From Longispora albida DSM 44784 (GTDB taxonomy: Bacteria; Actinomycetota; Actinomycetes; Mycobacteriales; Micromonosporaceae): DNA of 45,800 nucleotides. This document shows, piece after piece, positions 4,227 to 45,800 of this stretch. Position 1 is the first letter of the stretch. The number at the start of each line of letters is the position of its first letter. The notes below the pieces were generated by a model. It was not told where the DNA came from, did not search any database, and saw only the letters and a program-made list of their open reading frames with translations. The stretch is from the NCBI RefSeq assembly GCF_000379825.1, contig NZ_KB903813.1:1-45800 (forward strand), given 5' to 3'. The translations under genes and the position numbers were made by a program.

Positions 4227-4308
4227 CCGGCGACACTACTCGGGCGGGCGGCTCACCCGGGTACCCACAAATGATCTTGATCTTGGTTCTTGATCTAACG
4301 CGCGGTGG

Positions 4309-4405
4309 CCCGCTGAGGGCGGATCTGGCAAGCATCAGGGCTTCCCTCGTACCGGTGTTGTACGTGGGAAGCCCTGATGCGCAGTCCAGATTCGTTCTCA
4401 GCGGG
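4309..4405. repeat. Two-tier long hairpin element, copy A
   Basis: This is a 97-nt inverted repeat. Outer stem: 4309-4328 pairs with 4386-4405 (20 pairs, three of them G-U when read on the plus strand). Internal loop: CAA (4329-4331) against GCAGT (4381-4385). Inner stem: 4332-4352 with 4360-4380 (21 positions, one T-T mismatch). Loop: CGGTGTT. It ends 10 nt from the bkdC stop codon. The same architecture occurs at 23049-23145 and 34385-34479 with different stem sequences. The left flank (GATCTTGATCT, then GGTGG) and right flank (GTCGGCACTAC) are shared with copy C. Likely a terminator or structured RNA; a mobile hairpin is the alternative. Confidence 0.9.
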
Positions 4406-4415
4406 TCGGCACTAC

Positions 4416-5762
4416 CTACCAGCCGAGGAGAGCGGTTTCTGGGTCCTCGAGGAACGCGCCGATGTCGGCCAGGAACTTCGAGCCCAGCTCGCCATCGATG
4501 ATCCGGTGGTCGAACGACAGGCCCAGCGTCGTGACCTGACGCGGCTTGACCTTGCCCTTGTGTACCCAGGCCTGCTCGCGGATCGCGCCGAACGCGAGGA
4601 TCGCGGACTCGCCCGGAGGCAGGATCGGGGTACCGGTGTCGACGCCGTAGACGCCGACGTTGGTGATCGTGAACGTGCCGCCGGTCATGTCGGCCGGGGA
4701 CGTCTTGCCGTCGCGTGCCGTGCCGACCAGCGTGGTGAGCGCGTCGGCCAGCTCACGGAACGACAGCGAGCCGGCGTCCTTGATGTTCGGCACGATCAGC
4801 CCGCGCGGGGTGGCGGCGGCGATGCCCAGGTTCACGTAGTCCTTGACCACGATCTCCTGAGCGGCCTCGTCCCAGGACGAGTTCACCATCGGGTGCCGCT
4901 TGAGGGCGGCGGTGGCCGCCTTCATCACCAGCAGCAGCGGGGAGATCCGCACGTCACGCCACTCGCGCTTCGCCTTCAGCCTGTCGAGGGCCTTGACGCC
5001 ACGGGTCACGTCGATCGTCAGGAACTCGGTGACGTGCGGCGCGGTGAACGCCGACTGCACCATGTTCGCGGCGGTCAGCTTCCGCACACCCTTGATCGGG
5101 ATGCGGGTCTCGCCACCGGTCGTGACGACGCGGACCGGCGCGGCAGCCGCCGGGGCCGCCACGGCCGCGTGCACGTCCTCGCGGGTGATCGAGCCCTGCG
5201 GGCCGGTACCGACGAGGCCGGCCAGCGAGACGCCGAGGTCCTTGGCGAGCTTGCGTACCGGCGGCTTCGCCAGCACGTGCGCCGCGACCGGGGCCACGGG
5301 CTCTGCCACCACGACGGGAGCCGGAGCAGCGACGACCGGAGCCGGAGCGGGGGCAGCGACGACCGGAGCCGGGGCACCGCCCTTGCGGGCCCGGCGGGTC
5401 GCCGTGCCCTGGCGGGGGCCGTAGCCGACCAGGTTCGCCTCGCGCTTCGGCGCCTCGGCCGAGGCCGGAGCGGCAGCCGGGGTCTCGACCGGCGAGGCCG
5501 GCAGCTCACCGGCCGTCGGGTCGGTGTCGTACTCGATGATCGGCGCGCCGACCTCGACCGTCGTGTTCGGCTCGAAGAACAGCTTCGTCACGACGCCGAT
5601 GTACGGCGAGGGGATCTCGACGGCGGCCTTGGCCGTCTCGACCTCGACGATCGGCTGGTTGAGCTCGACGTGGTCGCCGACCTTGACCAGCCACTGCAGG
5701 ATCTCGCCCTCGGTGAGGCCCTCGCCGAGGTCGGGGAGCTTGAACTGCTTGATCCGCGACAT
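4416..5762 (-). CDS. bkdC: Branched-chain 2-oxoacid dehydrogenase E2 (dihydrolipoamide acyltransferase)
   Basis: Protein of 448 aa. It has an N-terminal lipoyl domain with the lipoylated Lys at about residue 45 (VETAKAAVEIP), an Ala/Pro-rich linker, an E3-binding domain at about 168-202 (PPVRKLAKDLGVSL...TREDVHAAV), and the CAT-like acyltransferase core ending with the catalytic DHRIIDGE motif. E2 transfers the acyl group from lipoate to CoA. The ATG at 5762 lies two bases after the E1-beta stop, so it is the last gene of a bkdA-bkdB-bkdC operon. The E1 pair and the VETAKAAVEIPSPY motif favour branched-chain substrates over pyruvate, but pyruvate cannot be excluded. No E3 gene is in the window. 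Confidence 0.9.
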   Translation of the reverse strand: MSRIKQFKLPDLGEGLTEGEILQWLVKVGDHVELNQPIVEVETAKAAVEIPSPYIGVVTKLFFEPNTTVEVGAPIIEYDTDPTAGELPASPVETPAAAPASAEAPKREANLVGYGPRQGTATRRARKGGAPAPVVAAPAPAPVVAAPAPVVVAEPVAPVAAHVLAKPPVRKLAKDLGVSLAGLVGTGPQGSITREDVHAAVAAPAAAAPVRVVTTGGETRIPIKGVRKLTAANMVQSAFTAPHVTEFLTIDVTRGVKALDRLKAKREWRDVRISPLLLVMKAATAALKRHPMVNSSWDEAAQEIVVKDYVNLGIAAATPRGLIVPNIKDAGSLSFRELADALTTLVGTARDGKTSPADMTGGTFTITNVGVYGVDTGTPILPPGESAILAFGAIREQAWVHKGKVKPRQVTTLGLSFDHRIIDGELGSKFLADIGAFLEDPETALLGW

Positions 5763-5764
5763 GC

Positions 5765-6745
5765 TCACCACCCGAAGGACTTGTCGACGGCGTCCAGGAC
5801 CCGGTCGAGGTCCGGCAGGAACTCCTCCTCGACCCGGGAGGCCGGGTAGGGGATGTCGTAGCCGGTGACCCGCTGGACCGGGGCCTCCAGGGAGTAGAAG
5901 CACTCCTCGGTGACCCGGGCGGAGACCTCCGCGCCGATGCCGAGGTTCTTGGAGGCCTCGTGCACGACGACCAGGCGGCCGGTCTTGCGGACCGAGGCGA
6001 AGATCGGCGCGTAGTCCACCGGGGACAGGCTGCGCATGTCGATCACCTCGATCGAGCGGCCGTCCTCCTCCGCTGCCGCGGCGGACTCCAGCGCGACCTT
6101 GACCATCGGGCCGTAGGCCACGATCGTCGCGTCCGAGCCCTCACGGAGCACGGCGGACGTGAAGAGGCTGCCCGGCTTGACCGACAGGTCGACCGAGGCC
6201 TTCTCGTAGTAGCGCCGCTTGGGCTCCATGAAGACGATCGGGTCGTCGCTGGCGATCGCTTCCTGGATCATCCAGTACGCGTCGGCCGGGTTCGAGCAGG
6301 AGACGACCTTGAGGCCCGCGGTGTGCGCGAAGTACGCCTCCGGGGACTCCGAGTGGTGCTCGACCGCGCCGATGCCGCCGCCGAACGGGATCCGGATGAC
6401 GACCGGCAGCTTCAGCTTGCCGCGCGAGCGGTAGTGCATCTTGGCGAGCTGGGAGACGATCTGGTCGTACGCCGGGTACACGAACCCGTCGAACTGGATC
6501 TCCACCACCGGCCGGTAGCCACGGATGGCCAGGCCGATCGCGGTGCCGACGATGCCGGACTCCGCGAGCGGGGTGTCGATGACCCGGTTCTCGCCGAAGT
6601 CCTTCTGGAGACCGTCGGTGATCCGGAAGACACCGCCGAGCTTGCCGATGTCCTCACCCATGAGCACGACCTTCGGGTCGTCCTCCATCGCCTTGCGAAG
6701 CCCGTTGTTGAGGGCCTTGGCCAGGGTCAGCGTTTCAGCGGCCAT
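5765..6745 (-). CDS. bkdB: Branched-chain 2-oxoacid dehydrogenase E1 beta subunit
   Basis: Protein of 326 aa and full length for E1-beta. Typical blocks are MGEDIGKLGGVFRIT near the N-terminus, DTPLAESGIVGTAIGLA, the HHSESPEAYFAHTAGLKVV segment that contributes to the active site, and a C-terminal transketolase-like domain (VTGYDIPYPA). Together with E1-alpha it binds thiamine diphosphate and decarboxylates branched-chain 2-oxoacids. Its ATG at 6745 shares one base with the E1-alpha stop (TGATG), indicating translational coupling; the longer open frame upstream is a shadow of E1-alpha. Confidence 0.92.
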   Translation of the reverse strand: MAAETLTLAKALNNGLRKAMEDDPKVVLMGEDIGKLGGVFRITDGLQKDFGENRVIDTPLAESGIVGTAIGLAIRGYRPVVEIQFDGFVYPAYDQIVSQLAKMHYRSRGKLKLPVVIRIPFGGGIGAVEHHSESPEAYFAHTAGLKVVSCSNPADAYWMIQEAIASDDPIVFMEPKRRYYEKASVDLSVKPGSLFTSAVLREGSDATIVAYGPMVKVALESAAAAEEDGRSIEVIDMRSLSPVDYAPIFASVRKTGRLVVVHEASKNLGIGAEVSARVTEECFYSLEAPVQRVTGYDIPYPASRVEEEFLPDLDRVLDAVDKSFGW

Positions 6746-22991: not shown

Positions 22992-23048
22992 GGCTTAGCA
23001 GGTACACCACAAGCTTGTGAACTTTGGTTTGGATCGCACCTGAAGTGG

Positions 23049-23145
23049 CCCGCTGAGGGCGGATCTGGCAAGCCTCGGGGTTCGCCACGTACCGGTGTTG
23101 TACGTGGCGAACCCCGAGGCGCAGTCCAGATTCGTCCTCAGCGGG
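23049..23145. repeat. Two-tier long hairpin element, copy B
   Basis: A 97-nt hairpin with the same plan as copy A. The outer 20-pair stem is 23049-23068 with 23126-23145 (two G-U pairs on the plus strand), the internal loop is CAA against GCAGT, the inner 21-bp stem is perfect (23072-23092 with 23100-23120), and the loop is CGGTGTT. The inner stem sequence differs from copy A at many positions, always with compensating changes. It ends 9 nt from the stop codon of the acyl-CoA dehydrogenase, between convergent genes. The flanks shared by A and C are largely absent here beyond GTGG on the left. Confidence 0.9.
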
Positions 23146-23154
23146 TCCAAACGG

Positions 23155-24312
23155 TCAGGAGAGGAGGTCGCGGGCGATGAGCATGCGCTGGACCTCGCTG
23201 GTGCCCTCGCCGATCTCCAGGATCTTGGCGTCGCGGTAGAAGCGGCCAGCCGGGAACTCGTTCATGAAGCCGTAGCCACCGTGGATCTGGGCGCACTCGC
23301 GGGCGCTGGTGGTGGCGGCTTCCGACGAGTACAGCTTGGCGATGGCCGCCTGGCGCTTGAAGTCCTCGCCGGCCAGCATGCGGGCCGCAGCGTCGTAGTA
23401 GGCGAGGCGGGAGGTGTGGGCCCGCAGCTCCATGTCCGCGATCTTGAACTGGACGGCCTGGTAGTTCGCGATGGGCTGGCCGAAGGCGTGGCGTTCCTTC
23501 GCGTACTTCACCGACTCGTCCACGCAGCCCTGGGCGAGGCCGACCGCGAGCGCCGAGATCGCGATCCGGCCCTCGTCGAGGATCCGGAGGAACTGGGCGT
23601 AGCCACGGCCCTGCTCGCCGACCAGGTTGCCGACCGGCACCCGGACGTTGTCGAACGTCAGCTCGTGGGTGTCGGAGGCGCACCAGCCGACCTTCGAGTA
23701 CCCGGGCGCGACGGTGAAGCCCGGCGTGCCGTGCGGGACGATGATCGAGGAGATCTCCTTCTTGCCGTTCTCCTTGATCCCGGTCACGGCCGTGACGGTC
23801 ACCAGCGTCGAGATGTCGGTACCCGAGTTGGTGATGAACGCCTTCGAGCCGTTGATGATCCACTCGGTGCCGTCCTCCGACAGCTCCGCGCGGGTCATCG
23901 TGCCGCCGGCGTCTGAGCCCGTACCCGGCTCGGTGAGGCCGAAGGCTGCCAGCTTGCGGCCGGACAGCAGATCGGGGAGGTACTGCTTCTTCTGCTCCTC
24001 GGTACCGAACCGGTAGATCGGCATCGCGCCCAGGCTGATCGCGGCCTCCAGCGTGATCGACACGCTGGAGTCGACCCGGGCGATCTCCTCCAGGGCCAGG
24101 CAGAGGGCGAAGTAGTCGCCGCCCATGCCGCCGTACTCCTCCGGGAACGGCAGGCCGAACAGCCCCATCTCGCCCATCTTCGCGATGATCTCGTAGGGGA
24201 AGGCGTGCCGCTCGTAGTAGTCGCCGATGACGGGCGCGATCTCCTTCGCCGCGAACTCGCGGACGGTCTGGCGGAGCGCCTCGTGCTCGTCGCTGAGCTT
24301 GAAGTCAACCAT
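23155..24312 (-). CDS. Acyl-CoA dehydrogenase (branched-chain degradation context)
   Basis: Protein of 385 aa and full length. FAD/substrate signatures: FGLTEPGTGSDAGG and WIINGSKAFITNSG in the middle domain, then QIHGGYGFMNEFPAGRFYRDAKI and IGEGTSEVQR at the C-terminus, where E369 is at the catalytic-base position of short/branched-chain enzymes. Classical isovaleryl-CoA dehydrogenases use a Glu elsewhere, so the substrate may be another short or branched acyl-CoA. The ATG at 24312 has an AAAGGACA site. It is the second gene after the carboxyltransferase, 23 nt downstream, and probably acts with it in leucine or isoleucine/valine degradation. Confidence 0.9.
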   Translation of the reverse strand: MVDFKLSDEHEALRQTVREFAAKEIAPVIGDYYERHAFPYEIIAKMGEMGLFGLPFPEEYGGMGGDYFALCLALEEIARVDSSVSITLEAAISLGAMPIYRFGTEEQKKQYLPDLLSGRKLAAFGLTEPGTGSDAGGTMTRAELSEDGTEWIINGSKAFITNSGTDISTLVTVTAVTGIKENGKKEISSIIVPHGTPGFTVAPGYSKVGWCASDTHELTFDNVRVPVGNLVGEQGRGYAQFLRILDEGRIAISALAVGLAQGCVDESVKYAKERHAFGQPIANYQAVQFKIADMELRAHTSRLAYYDAAARMLAGEDFKRQAAIAKLYSSEAATTSARECAQIHGGYGFMNEFPAGRFYRDAKILEIGEGTSEVQRMLIARDLLS

Positions 24313-34333: not shown

Positions 34334-34384
34334 AACCGGTACTCCCGCCCTTGATCTCGATGATCTTGATCTAAGGCGAGGTGG

Positions 34385-34479
34385 CCCGCTGAGCGGAAAT
34401 CTGACAAGCAACGCGAAAGCCCGTGTACTGGTTGTACACGGGCTTTTGCGTTGCGCAGCTCAGATTTTCGCTCAGCGGG
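34385..34479. repeat. Two-tier long hairpin element, copy C
   Basis: A 95-nt hairpin. The outer 20-pair stem is 34385-34404 with 34460-34479, the internal loop is CAA against GCAGC, the inner 21-pair stem is 34408-34428 with 34434-34454 (one G-U), and the loop is the shorter TGGTT. Both stems differ in sequence from copies A and B but keep the pairing. The left flank GATCTTGATCTAA, then GGTGG is as in copy A. The right flank AGCGGGTCGGCAC is duplicated in tandem (34474-34486 and 34491-34503), and the second copy runs into the tetR stop codon. Confidence 0.9.
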
Positions 34480-34503
34480 TCGGCACGACAAAGCGGGTCG
34501 GCA

Positions 34504-35085
34504 CTACGAAAGGGCGGAGAGGGCGGCTTTGCAGAGGAGCGCGGCCCGGCGGTCGCGGTCGACCTCCCCGCCCAGGAACGGCGTCGAGTTCATCAGGCCG
34601 AAGGCCGCGTGGGCCAGCACCCGGGCCTCGCTCGGCGCCAGCTGGGGCCGCAGCTTCGTCAGTACCCCGACCCACTCCTCCACGTACTGCCGCTGGAGCC
34701 TGCGGATCTCGCGGCGCGGCTCGGCTGGCAGCCGGTCCAGCTCGTGCAGGTGCACGGCGATCACGGCCGGATGCGCGAGCGCGAACTCGACGTGGAAGCT
34801 GACGAGGGCGGCGAGCGCCTTGGCCGGCTCGCCGGAGAACTCCAGAGCCCGCTCCTGACCACCGGCCAGCAGCTGCTCACTGACGGGGGTGAGCGCGGCG
34901 GCCAGCATGGCTTCCTTGCCGGCGAAGTGGTGGTACAGCGCCGGGCCGGTCACCCCGGCAGCCGCGCCGATGTCGTCCATCGAGACGCCGTGATAACCGC
35001 GTTCGGCGAAGAGCTGGACGGCGATGTCCAGGATCTCGTCGCGGCGGGTGCGGCGGCGAGGCGGGGCGGCGAGGTCTTCGGTCAC
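34504..35085 (-). CDS. TetR-family regulator, probable acyl-CoA/branched-chain catabolism control
   Basis: Protein of 193 aa. N-terminal HTH: RRDEILDIAVQLFAERGYHG, VSMDDIGAAAGVTGPALYHHFAGKEAML. The C-terminal domain (FALAHPAVIAVHLHELDRLP, EPRREIRRLQRQYVEEWV) resembles TetR proteins adjacent to acyl-CoA carboxylase genes in actinobacteria. Start GTG 35085: TACCCT lies exactly six bases upstream (leaderless) and overlaps a near-perfect palindrome at 35092-35113, so autoregulation is likely. It lies near the HMG-CoA lyase/biotin carboxylase operon; whether it reads the AACGATCGTT operators or only its own site is open. Confidence 0.88.
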   Translation of the reverse strand: MTEDLAAPPRRRTRRDEILDIAVQLFAERGYHGVSMDDIGAAAGVTGPALYHHFAGKEAMLAAALTPVSEQLLAGGQERALEFSGEPAKALAALVSFHVEFALAHPAVIAVHLHELDRLPAEPRREIRRLQRQYVEEWVGVLTKLRPQLAPSEARVLAHAAFGLMNSTPFLGGEVDRDRRAALLCKAALSALS

Positions 35086-44678: not shown

Positions 44679-45094
44679 TTATCCACACGGCAGCGCCGAA
44701 CCCGCGAACCCGCGCCTCACGTTCCGTGACTCCCATTCTCGACGCCCTGTGATCTTCGGCAAGTTATGCACAGGCTCGGCCCGGGGTTATACACAGCCCA
44801 CAGGCCCCAGAGTTATCCACAGGCCGACCCGCCAACAGCGGGCAGGGCGCCCCACATCAGACACGAGATCCACAAGCTCACAATCGGCGAATTCCGGGCC
44901 GATGAGCTCAGCAGTCCCGTTGTTTCACGTGAAACCACCCCGCAGGACGGTCATATCTGCCTAAAGTGGTCAGGGCGGAGGCGACAAGCCGTCCCCAGAA
45001 CTTATCCACAGCCTGTGGATAAGTATGTGTGTAAGAAGAAGCACCCTGGGTCTGTCCACAGGGTGCAGTGGAGTTATCCACAGGGTTGTCCACA
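44679..45094. promoter_or_regulatory. Cluster of nine DnaA-box-like sites
   Basis: Matches to TT(A/G)TCCACA: 44679 (exact), 44764 (TTATGCACA), 44787 (TTATACACA), 44813 (exact), 45002 (exact), 45014 (minus strand, exact), 45052 (CTGTCCACA), 45074 (exact) and 45086 (TTGTCCACA). Eight of the nine face the same way. Exact 9-mers this dense are not expected by chance in GC-rich DNA. dnaA and dnaN are not nearby (proS on one side, a tRNA-Ala fragment on the other), so this looks like a DnaA-titrating or regulatory cluster rather than oriC; oriC itself cannot be ruled out from one side only. Confidence 0.82.
44921..44936. promoter_or_regulatory. parS centromere-like site
   Basis: TGTTTCACGTGAAACC contains the perfect 14-bp palindrome GTTTCACGTGAAAC, the ParB-binding core known from Streptomyces and, with one flank base changed, the general bacterial parS 16-mer. 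It is in the middle of the DnaA-box cluster. ParB loading sites are usually near oriC, which suggests this region lies in the origin-proximal part of the chromosome. Confidence 0.88.
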
Positions 45095-45216
45095 GGCTGT
45101 GTGAAGTAACACCTCATGCGCCGCCGCCTCGGAACTCCCGCCGAAGACTCACTCACAGTGAGCCGGCTCGCGTGCCGAACCTCGGACTCGACCCACGTGC
45201 CGAAGATCGTCCTACC

Positions 45217-45266: not shown

Positions 45267-45800
45267 CGGCAAAGCATACGACAGTGTCGGCTGGCGTCTG
45301 ACGCTGGGGTACCGGCCTCGGTGATGCCGCTCGATGTCGGCCATTGTCGGATGCCTTGGCTACAGAATTGGCTACAGCTACCGGCCTGTCCAGTTTCGCT
45401 CTGCATCAAGATCGACCTGCGTTGCAGCCTGTGAGGTTCGCCCTCACGGGCCGCAACGGGTTTGATCTTTGCCCTGCACAAGGAGGGGCCTTTCAGCCAT
45501 CCCGTCGCCTCGTCCCACACGTAGTGCGATCGGGCCTGCCCCTCCCTGGCGCAGGTGGAGCGCCCCACTGGACGAACGACCTGTGCCAGGGAGGGGCGGG
45601 TCTGATAGGGCTTTGCCTGGGTCGTGGCGTCGGGATGGCTGACAGAGCACCGACGACCGAGAGTCCACCGCTCTGCCCAGCCATCCCGGAGCTGAGGCCC
45701 CCGCCGGAGGCGTGCTCTTGACCTTCCCCGCTCACCACCAGGTCGTCACGCTCGATCGGTGCGAGGTCTGGCCTGAGCCACAACCAGACGACCCGGCACG
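45267..45800. other. Gene-free right edge with dense inverted repeats
   Basis: I find no reading frame here that I can support. It contains hairpin 45421-45457 (GTTGC/GCAAC and GTGAGG/CCTCAC tiers). It also has a 150-nt imperfect palindrome 45493-45642: 25-nt outer arms with three T-T mismatches, 17-nt linkers on both sides, 21-bp inner arms 45535-45555/45580-45600 with two G-U pairs, and a 24-nt loop. A third arm copy, CAGCCATCCCG, lies at 45678-45688. It could be structured RNA, a recombination or transfer site, or a decayed insertion. If the tRNA fragment marks an element end, this lies inside the element. Confidence 0.65.

Follow-up and report, generated by a model that had tools for sequence, protein, structure and literature searches.

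The hairpin at positions 4309-4405 of the Longispora albida stretch analysed here, whose full 45,800 nucleotides we call the window, raises the question of what keeps a long palindrome folded at the end of a gene while its stem differs from copy to copy. A sequence-only reading had described three such hairpins in the window, and each was found where it had been placed, with the arms and loops assigned to it. The answer developed below begins with these three hairpins and ends with the known systems that they resemble.

Three window hairpins and their family

Copy A (4309..4405, plus strand) is a 97-nt two-tier hairpin with outer arms at 4309-4328 and 4386-4405, inner arms at 4332-4352 and 4360-4380 and a loop at 4353-4359, and its covariance match covers 4285-4416 on the plus strand. 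Its 5' flank, GGTAC...AATGATCTTGATCTTGGTTCTTGATCTAACGCGCGGTGG (4260..4308, plus strand, outer limit by eye), is matched on the other side by a 3' flank, TCGGCACTAC (4406..4415, plus strand), which adjoins the stop codon (CTA, or TAG, at 4416-4418) of a minus-strand open reading frame for a 2-oxoacid dehydrogenase acyltransferase (E2; 4416..5903; PF00198, PF00364 and PF02817). Copy B (23049..23145, plus strand) is a 97-nt hairpin in which all 21 inner-stem positions pair. It lies between a 5' flank of AGGTACACC...TTTGGATCGCACCTGAAGTGG (23000..23048, plus strand, outer limit by eye) and a second 3' flank haplotype, TCCAAACGG (23146..23154, plus strand), which adjoins the stop codon (TCA, or TGA, at 23155-23157) of a minus-strand acyl-CoA dehydrogenase gene, given here by its 3' part as a scanned stretch rather than from a set gene start (23155..23901; PF00441 and PF02770). 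Copy C (34385..34479, plus strand) is a 95-nt hairpin of the CTGGTT-loop subtype, preceded by a GGTACTCC...CTTGATCTCGATGATCTTGATCTAAGGCGAGGTGG flank (34338..34384, plus strand, outer limit by eye) and followed by its 3' flank and then a further, incomplete copy of that flank (GCGGGTCGGCACTACG; 34480..34508, plus strand), which holds the stop codon (CTA, or TAG, at 34504-34506) of a minus-strand open reading frame for a TetR-family regulator (34504..35085; PF00440). According to the domain search, the E2, the acyl-CoA dehydrogenase and the TetR regulator have no apparent common function.

The inner arms of A, B and C are complementary at 95%, 100% and 95% of positions and the outer arms at 85%, 90% and 95%, respectively. 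On the plus strand all three form one two-tier hairpin (-78.1, -88.0 and -78.3 kcal/mol for A, B and C), and 0 of 200 shuffles folded as stably. The pairing details of the sequence-only reading were reproduced as well, the wobbles of these copies being G-U on the plus strand and copy A carrying one T-T. The conserved unit is larger than 4309-4405: a TTGATCTAA-type flank adjoins one end, and either TCGGCACTAC or TCCAAACGG the other. The window also holds an inverted repeat at 45007-45101 containing TGTGGATAA and TTATCCACA, which we take to be DnaA-box-like, and a 76-nt imperfect inverted repeat at 45490-45645, close to the window end.

These hairpins belong to a large dispersed family of small palindromic DNA repeats. 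The ends CCCGCTGAG and CTCAGCGGG, separated by 60-90 nt, occur at 60 places in the 6.8-Mb own genome (G000) and the reversed pattern at none, and a covariance model built from 48 copies gave 149 matches there, many of them the same palindrome on its other strand, with at least 95 matches of 100 bits or more. The family behind the claim of three copies is thus real, but it has far more members, at 60 exact-end places and at least 95 covariance-model places. The search of related genomes with the model likewise found further copies in the same genus, at least 44 matches of 75 bits or more in a second genome (G001), and in the same family. Counts for the own genome, G001 and another genome, G013, are lower bounds, as up to 150 candidates were scored per genome. 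The copies aligned for the model were chosen by their exact 9-bp ends: 50 of the 60 places were listed and gave 51 element records, which became 49 on removal of L133 (at a contig end) and L148 (an exact duplicate) and 48 on removal of L142 (an N in the flank). Hairpin limits are model positions except for those 51 records, and errors of 1-3 nt are possible, mostly in G001.

By rough motifs the 95 own copies fall into three main hairpin subtypes (39, 30 and 14 copies) and 12 others, and a fixed interval at the inner 5' arm holds 71 distinct sequences. An inner stem that begins GC and ends GTAC is therefore a property of the three window copies but not of the family, other members having GGC...ATAC or CAT...GTAC. 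The outermost nine base pairs, fixed in the 48-copy set by the way it was selected, are variable in the full set, where 87 of 95 copies pair them perfectly. Two enlarged hairpins, L330 and L334 (G000 contigs C23 and C20), give model matches of 157-158 bases and have additional sequence in the 5' arm. Contig C9 ends exactly where the hairpin of L133 ends and the flank of L142 carries an N; family palindromes may break assemblies at such places. Two sets of identical hairpins occur at different loci, one of them including the contig end and the N-bearing flank, and these identities may be assembly artefacts.

The stems change in a compensated manner. Over the 48 distinct copies 96.2% of cells hold a pair, two-sided changes are found in 24 of 41 pairs (shuffled mean 18.9, with 24 reached by 1 of 500 shuffles), and the covariation score is 0.491, compared with 0.154 for shuffled and at most 0.119 for slid controls, which bears out the compensatory changes first proposed from three copies. 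Inner stems pair at 95.7% with their own arm and at a mean of 69.1% when arms are swapped between copies. Chance origin was rejected on the absence of the reversed end pattern and on these shuffled and slid controls. With a possible guide-like use of the inner stems in view, nine of 190 inner-stem 14-mers were seen to recur elsewhere in 415,736 bases (about 6% of the own genome), compared with one when each copy was shuffled once, and variant elements may account for the additional sites.

Gene ends and the preferred strand

Read in gene sense, the unit runs from a stop codon through TAGTGCCGA or CCGTTTGGA (the commonest of several sequences) into the hairpin, and on through CCACCTCGCGTTAGATCAAGA into a purine-rich tail. 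With genes taken from a codon-usage caller trained on these loci, 80 of the 95 own copies and 33 of the 44 G001 copies have a same-direction gene that ends within 24 nt before the hairpin, with the element in one orientation. No stop lies within 24 nt of 15 of the 95 and 11 of the 44 copies, and at 7 and 8 copies, respectively, only the far-side gene ends toward the element. Among the 80 stop-adjacent own copies, 33 have the stop codon inside the element (17 in the hairpin foot and 16 in TAGTGCCGA), and 13 of the 80 proteins have an element-encoded ...PTR terminus. Of the 84 own genes that end on that side, 49 stop with TAG, 32 with TGA and 3 with TAA, compared with 91, 184 and 28 for genes away from elements at the same loci, where overlap of loci means that control genes are partly counted twice. 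Neighbouring genes converge on 51 of the 95 copies, compared with 42 of the 259 gene pairs used as controls (loci that overlap enter these counts repeatedly). Both neighbours are antisense to the plus strand at 32 of 95. As a separate observation, a C-terminal tail ...(L/V)PTR encoded by the element is common to unrelated proteins at L113, L121, L126, L140, L169, L267, L270, L271 and other loci, because their reading frames enter the hairpin foot.

Such a position is what would be expected of a gene-sense 3'-end device, whether a terminator, an mRNA 3' stabiliser or an RNase site, kept for the benefit of the gene. Besides the single orientation within 24 nt of the stop, this explanation is favoured by the spacing of same-direction genes beyond the element, which start 55-736 nt on in the 30 stop-adjacent own copies that have one, by a TTAGATCAA-like tail (at most one mismatch) in 88 of 95 own and 40 of 44 G001 copies, and by six gene ends that bear the element in both species. 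The gene-sense strand, however, is the poorer folder (mean RNA energy -70.2 kcal/mol vs -76.8 for the plus strand), no T-tract directly follows the hairpin, the own-genome gene-sense consensus there being CCACCTCGCGTTAGATCAAGA, a terminator scan around the three window copies returned 0 hits, and the reading frame enters the hairpin foot at 17 own copies. We regard a device of this kind as unlikely. From position alone, a passive transcription barrier between neighbouring genes is plausible.

The two strands are not equivalent. Across the 48 copies the outer stem has 64 G-T or T-G pairs and 0 A-C or C-A pairs on the plus strand, whereas the inner stem has 16 and 9 over all pairs, or 15 and 3 over columns 51-68, which omit the first three pairs, where one subtype is misaligned. 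The claimed G-U polarity of the wobbles on the plus strand is supported for the outer stem and is weaker for the inner one. Over all copies, outer-stem wobbles number 125 G-T and 5 A-C in G000 and 70 and 5 in G001. The plus strand, antisense to the gene ending at the hairpin, is the more stable as RNA in 94 of 95 own copies and 44 of 44 in G001; among loop-anchored hairpins taken from 15 other sources the same is true of 38 of 39 (a tally confined to hairpins with a stated loop motif and a plus-strand energy below -35 kcal/mol). DNA parameters again make it the more stable in 92 of the 95 and 43 of the 44, in support of the earlier preference for the plus strand. The same direction recurs across many genera, with the proviso that these counts are not independent events, as copies share ancestry; strand-biased mutation could lie behind part of the polarity. 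The polarity data do not tell RNA from single-stranded DNA.

This last point bears on the sequence-only reading, which had taken the hairpin most simply for a plus-strand RNA or a single-strand DNA hairpin. A structured RNA, small or antisense 3'-end, could be transcribed opposite to the gene next to it, or could form the 3' UTR of a convergent gene, and the G-U wobbles on the plus strand, its better RNA fold and the unpaired apical and internal loop motifs, which recur across genera, all agree with it. A plus-strand RNA as the simplest interpretation was not supported: 80 of the 95 copies have the plus strand antisense to the gene that ends there, DNA energies are polarised in the same direction, related cores in other genomes lie within elements bounded by terminal inverted repeats, and versions of the flanks exist that have no hairpin. 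At the 32 of 95 copies with both neighbours antisense, moreover, a plus-strand RNA would need its own promoter, and a simple sigma-70 scan around the three window copies, covering one promoter type, found none. Known RNA families were rejected as candidates, which fits the earlier remark that no named element of this design is known; Rfam models at gathering score gave 0 matches in the window, and at 12 loci only tmRNA and tRNA reached that score, away from the hairpins, with sub-threshold microRNA matches on the hairpins at E 0.033 and above. On balance a plus-strand RNA appears improbable, to about the same degree as the 3'-end device.

Turnover, source of the covariation and favoured reading

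Comparison of the two species shows elements that share sites and differ in sequence. The flanks of the 51 own elements were compared with 30 of the 44 G001 loci, and the six gene ends that bear an element in both genomes have gene identities of 77-92% and hairpins that are unlike; at the convergent pair L130/L222 (G000/G001) the elements lie in opposite orientation. A third genus, represented by G018, carries an element too, at the end of a gene that matches the one at L118. Among 20 stretches picked for flank variants, the same flanks also occur with the hairpin absent, reduced to its outer stem, swapped for a different palindrome or enlarged. Hairpin subtypes, as assigned by rough motifs, combine with both flank haplotypes, and the two halves of the flank are linked: CCAAAC goes together with AA before GTGG (17 of 18 copies) and CGGCAC with either AG or CG (66 of 67), while 10 copies remained unassigned.

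All 44 G001 matches lie in 4.65-8.61 Mb of contig C1 (loci L189-L242 in part and L304-L317), in one half of the chromosome (8.68 Mb in all), the origin-proximal one, dnaA being at 6.312 Mb; a few weaker matches fall outside that half, for example one of 43.9 bits at 3.61 Mb (150 of 6751 candidates scored). An orientation set by the replication strand was rejected for G001, a hand tally of 16 plus and 14 minus to the right of dnaA and 9 plus and 5 minus to the left revealing no clear bias.

Our favoured explanation, held with slightly better than even confidence, is a dispersed non-autonomous palindromic element of the MITE/REP-like kind. The family is short, multi-copy and palindromic in the manner of MITEs, and terminal inverted repeats were recognised by eye around the cores of 10 of 14 other genomes; within the own genus no terminal repeat or target-site duplication was recognised, and no autonomous partner or transposase for the element was found. 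It would have spread as a miniature transposable element, its folded plus strand, as single-stranded DNA or, less likely, as RNA, being recognised by a putative mobilising enzyme, and such recognition would keep the fold under selection while the sequence drifts. Gene ends might be tolerated or preferred partly because the element carries stop codons facing in. Once in place it would probably form a passive transcription barrier between neighbouring, often convergent, genes, and copies may be homogenised further by recombination between elements and by template-switch palindrome correction. Since the G001 copies occupy one origin-proximal half and several sites are shared between the species, the family may be old and immobile here. 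Another proposal, which we rate as unlikely, is a stop-codon-targeting mobile palindrome, attC-like and integrase-independent, in which a putative enzyme would read the folded DNA strand antisense to the preceding gene, so that only the fold and short loop motifs were constrained and the stem was free to differ in each copy.

A neutral origin of the covariation, mainly by intra-molecular template switching or gene conversion with no selection on the fold, would account for some of the same data. One copy, L114, has made its normally asymmetric internal loop symmetric, and two copies, L154 (with the usual outer stem) and L296 (with another outer stem), have inverted apical loops, suggesting that some of the change arises at the DNA level by template switching or conversion; inner-stem wobbles are also few and weakly polarised. 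Neutral change predicts no strand preference, however, and both G000 and G001 show a strong polarity in the outer stem; the asymmetric internal loop is kept in most aligned copies. We consider a mainly neutral origin quite improbable, although part of the covariation may come from DNA-level palindrome correction. The earlier argument for selection on the folded molecule is retained to that extent, supported by the two-sided stem changes and qualified by this second possible source.

Returning to the favoured explanation, the hairpins probably represent a new family of putatively mobile, non-autonomous palindromic elements, gene-end-anchored in the own genus. They offer an unusually clear natural experiment, with many paralogous hairpins of differing stems sharing one fold and one preferred strand. 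Because so many differing stems keep the same fold, what keeps repetitive palindromes folded, be it enzyme recognition, RNA function or DNA-level correction, becomes directly testable. A repeat of this kind can also rewrite the stop codons and protein C-termini of unrelated genes.

Relatives in other genera and comparison with known systems

Model matches were obtained in at least 16 of 41 relatives (own genome included, 82 candidates scored per genome), in at least 64 of 150 family genomes and at least 20 of 44 genera (22 candidates scored per genome) and in at least 2 of 396 phylum genomes (own included, 8 candidates scored per genome), which indicates a family concentrated in one family-level group. 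The related cores between terminal inverted repeats, many of which carry a TACCGGTGTTGTA apex, we take to be IS5/IS427-like miniature elements. Their position relative to genes is not fixed, as judged from a rough gene call at few loci and from an orientation set by rough motifs, which proved wrong at some G001 loci. Paired repeats lie 41-183 bp apart in G036 and G022, where no IS-sized pair was noticed (one motif, at most one mismatch); the reversed-pattern control gave 4+5 in G022 and 0+1 in G036.

Several of these genomes merit separate mention. At least 25 model matches were found in G013, and the six that were read (L194, L206, L243, L248, L253 and L258) are near-identical palindromic miniature elements with GGTCCTGACAGAAAGG-type ends, perhaps a recent burst. 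The stop-adjacent form, with a TTTAGATCAA tail, was recognised by eye at L029 and L084 of the MAG 'Actinomycetes bacterium', from a pattern scan with at least two clear relatives among the matches listed (96 stretches, 33 of them inspected). Palindromes of 84-85 nt that start with CCCGCTGAGAGC or CCCGCTGAGAAC and end with CTCAGCGGG were seen at L026, L031, L060, L110 and L111 (Asanoa, Micromonospora, Salinispora and Catenuloplanes), some of them flanked by AACGG/CCGTT; they seem to form a distinct repeat family that shares the outer nonamer.

No published description of this repeat family was found in the open-licence PMC literature. A survey of stem-loop families (PMC2267715) comprises, in its excerpted text, Corynebacterium diphtheriae and two Mycobacterium species as its high-GC Firmicutes. 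Among described repeats, the REP/RAYT system is similar in its dispersed intergenic palindromes and in the stop codon supplied to neighbouring ORFs, GTAG REPs often giving a TAG stop to flanking ORFs according to excerpts of PMC3733652. REPs measure 20-40 bp, in contrast to about 97 nt here. GTAG occurs within 14 nt before the hairpin in 34 of 95 own and 8 of 44 G001 copies. The Y1 domain PF01797 (IS200/IS605-type transposase) was not found in G000, G001, G036, G013 and G005 and occurs in two of the seven genomes, as a full match in G022 and a partial match in G018. Membership of REP/RAYT was rejected because the GTAG tag marks a minority of copies and a Y1 transposase domain was found in neither G000 nor G001.

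ERIC and other bacterial MITEs are likewise palindromic, multi-copy and mostly intergenic, and 3'-end ERIC insertions affect transcripts, as summarised in excerpts of a review of MITEs (PMC10969869). The present family differs, in a comparison of features rather than of sequences, in that its inner stem varies yet still pairs and one strand consistently folds better. In the portion of PMC3053210 that describes it, attC is a variable-sequence palindrome downstream of a gene whose bottom strand is folded and bound, and it resembles the family in position, strand choice and freedom of sequence. An integron attC-like site for single-strand-specific site-specific recombination, folded antisense to the gene, is nevertheless extremely improbable. 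GTTRRRY follows the hairpin within 22 nt in 29 of the 95 and 13 of the 44 copies, but RYYYAAC precedes it, and both core sites occur together, in 0 of 95 and 0 of 44. None of seven genomes has a match to the integron integrase TIGR02249 above the cut-off, although all seven, like all 14 controls, have matches below it, and the copies read are scattered rather than arrayed. Integron attC membership was rejected on the missing RYYYAAC core and the lack of an integrase above cut-off in those seven genomes. The resemblance to IS5/IS427-like elements is found in the TACCGGTGTTGTA apex, or close variants of it, between terminal inverted repeats such as TAGGCCGTGTCCTGC in G036; own-genus elements, by comparison, have no recognised terminal inverted repeats and are mostly fixed in their orientation to the adjacent gene.
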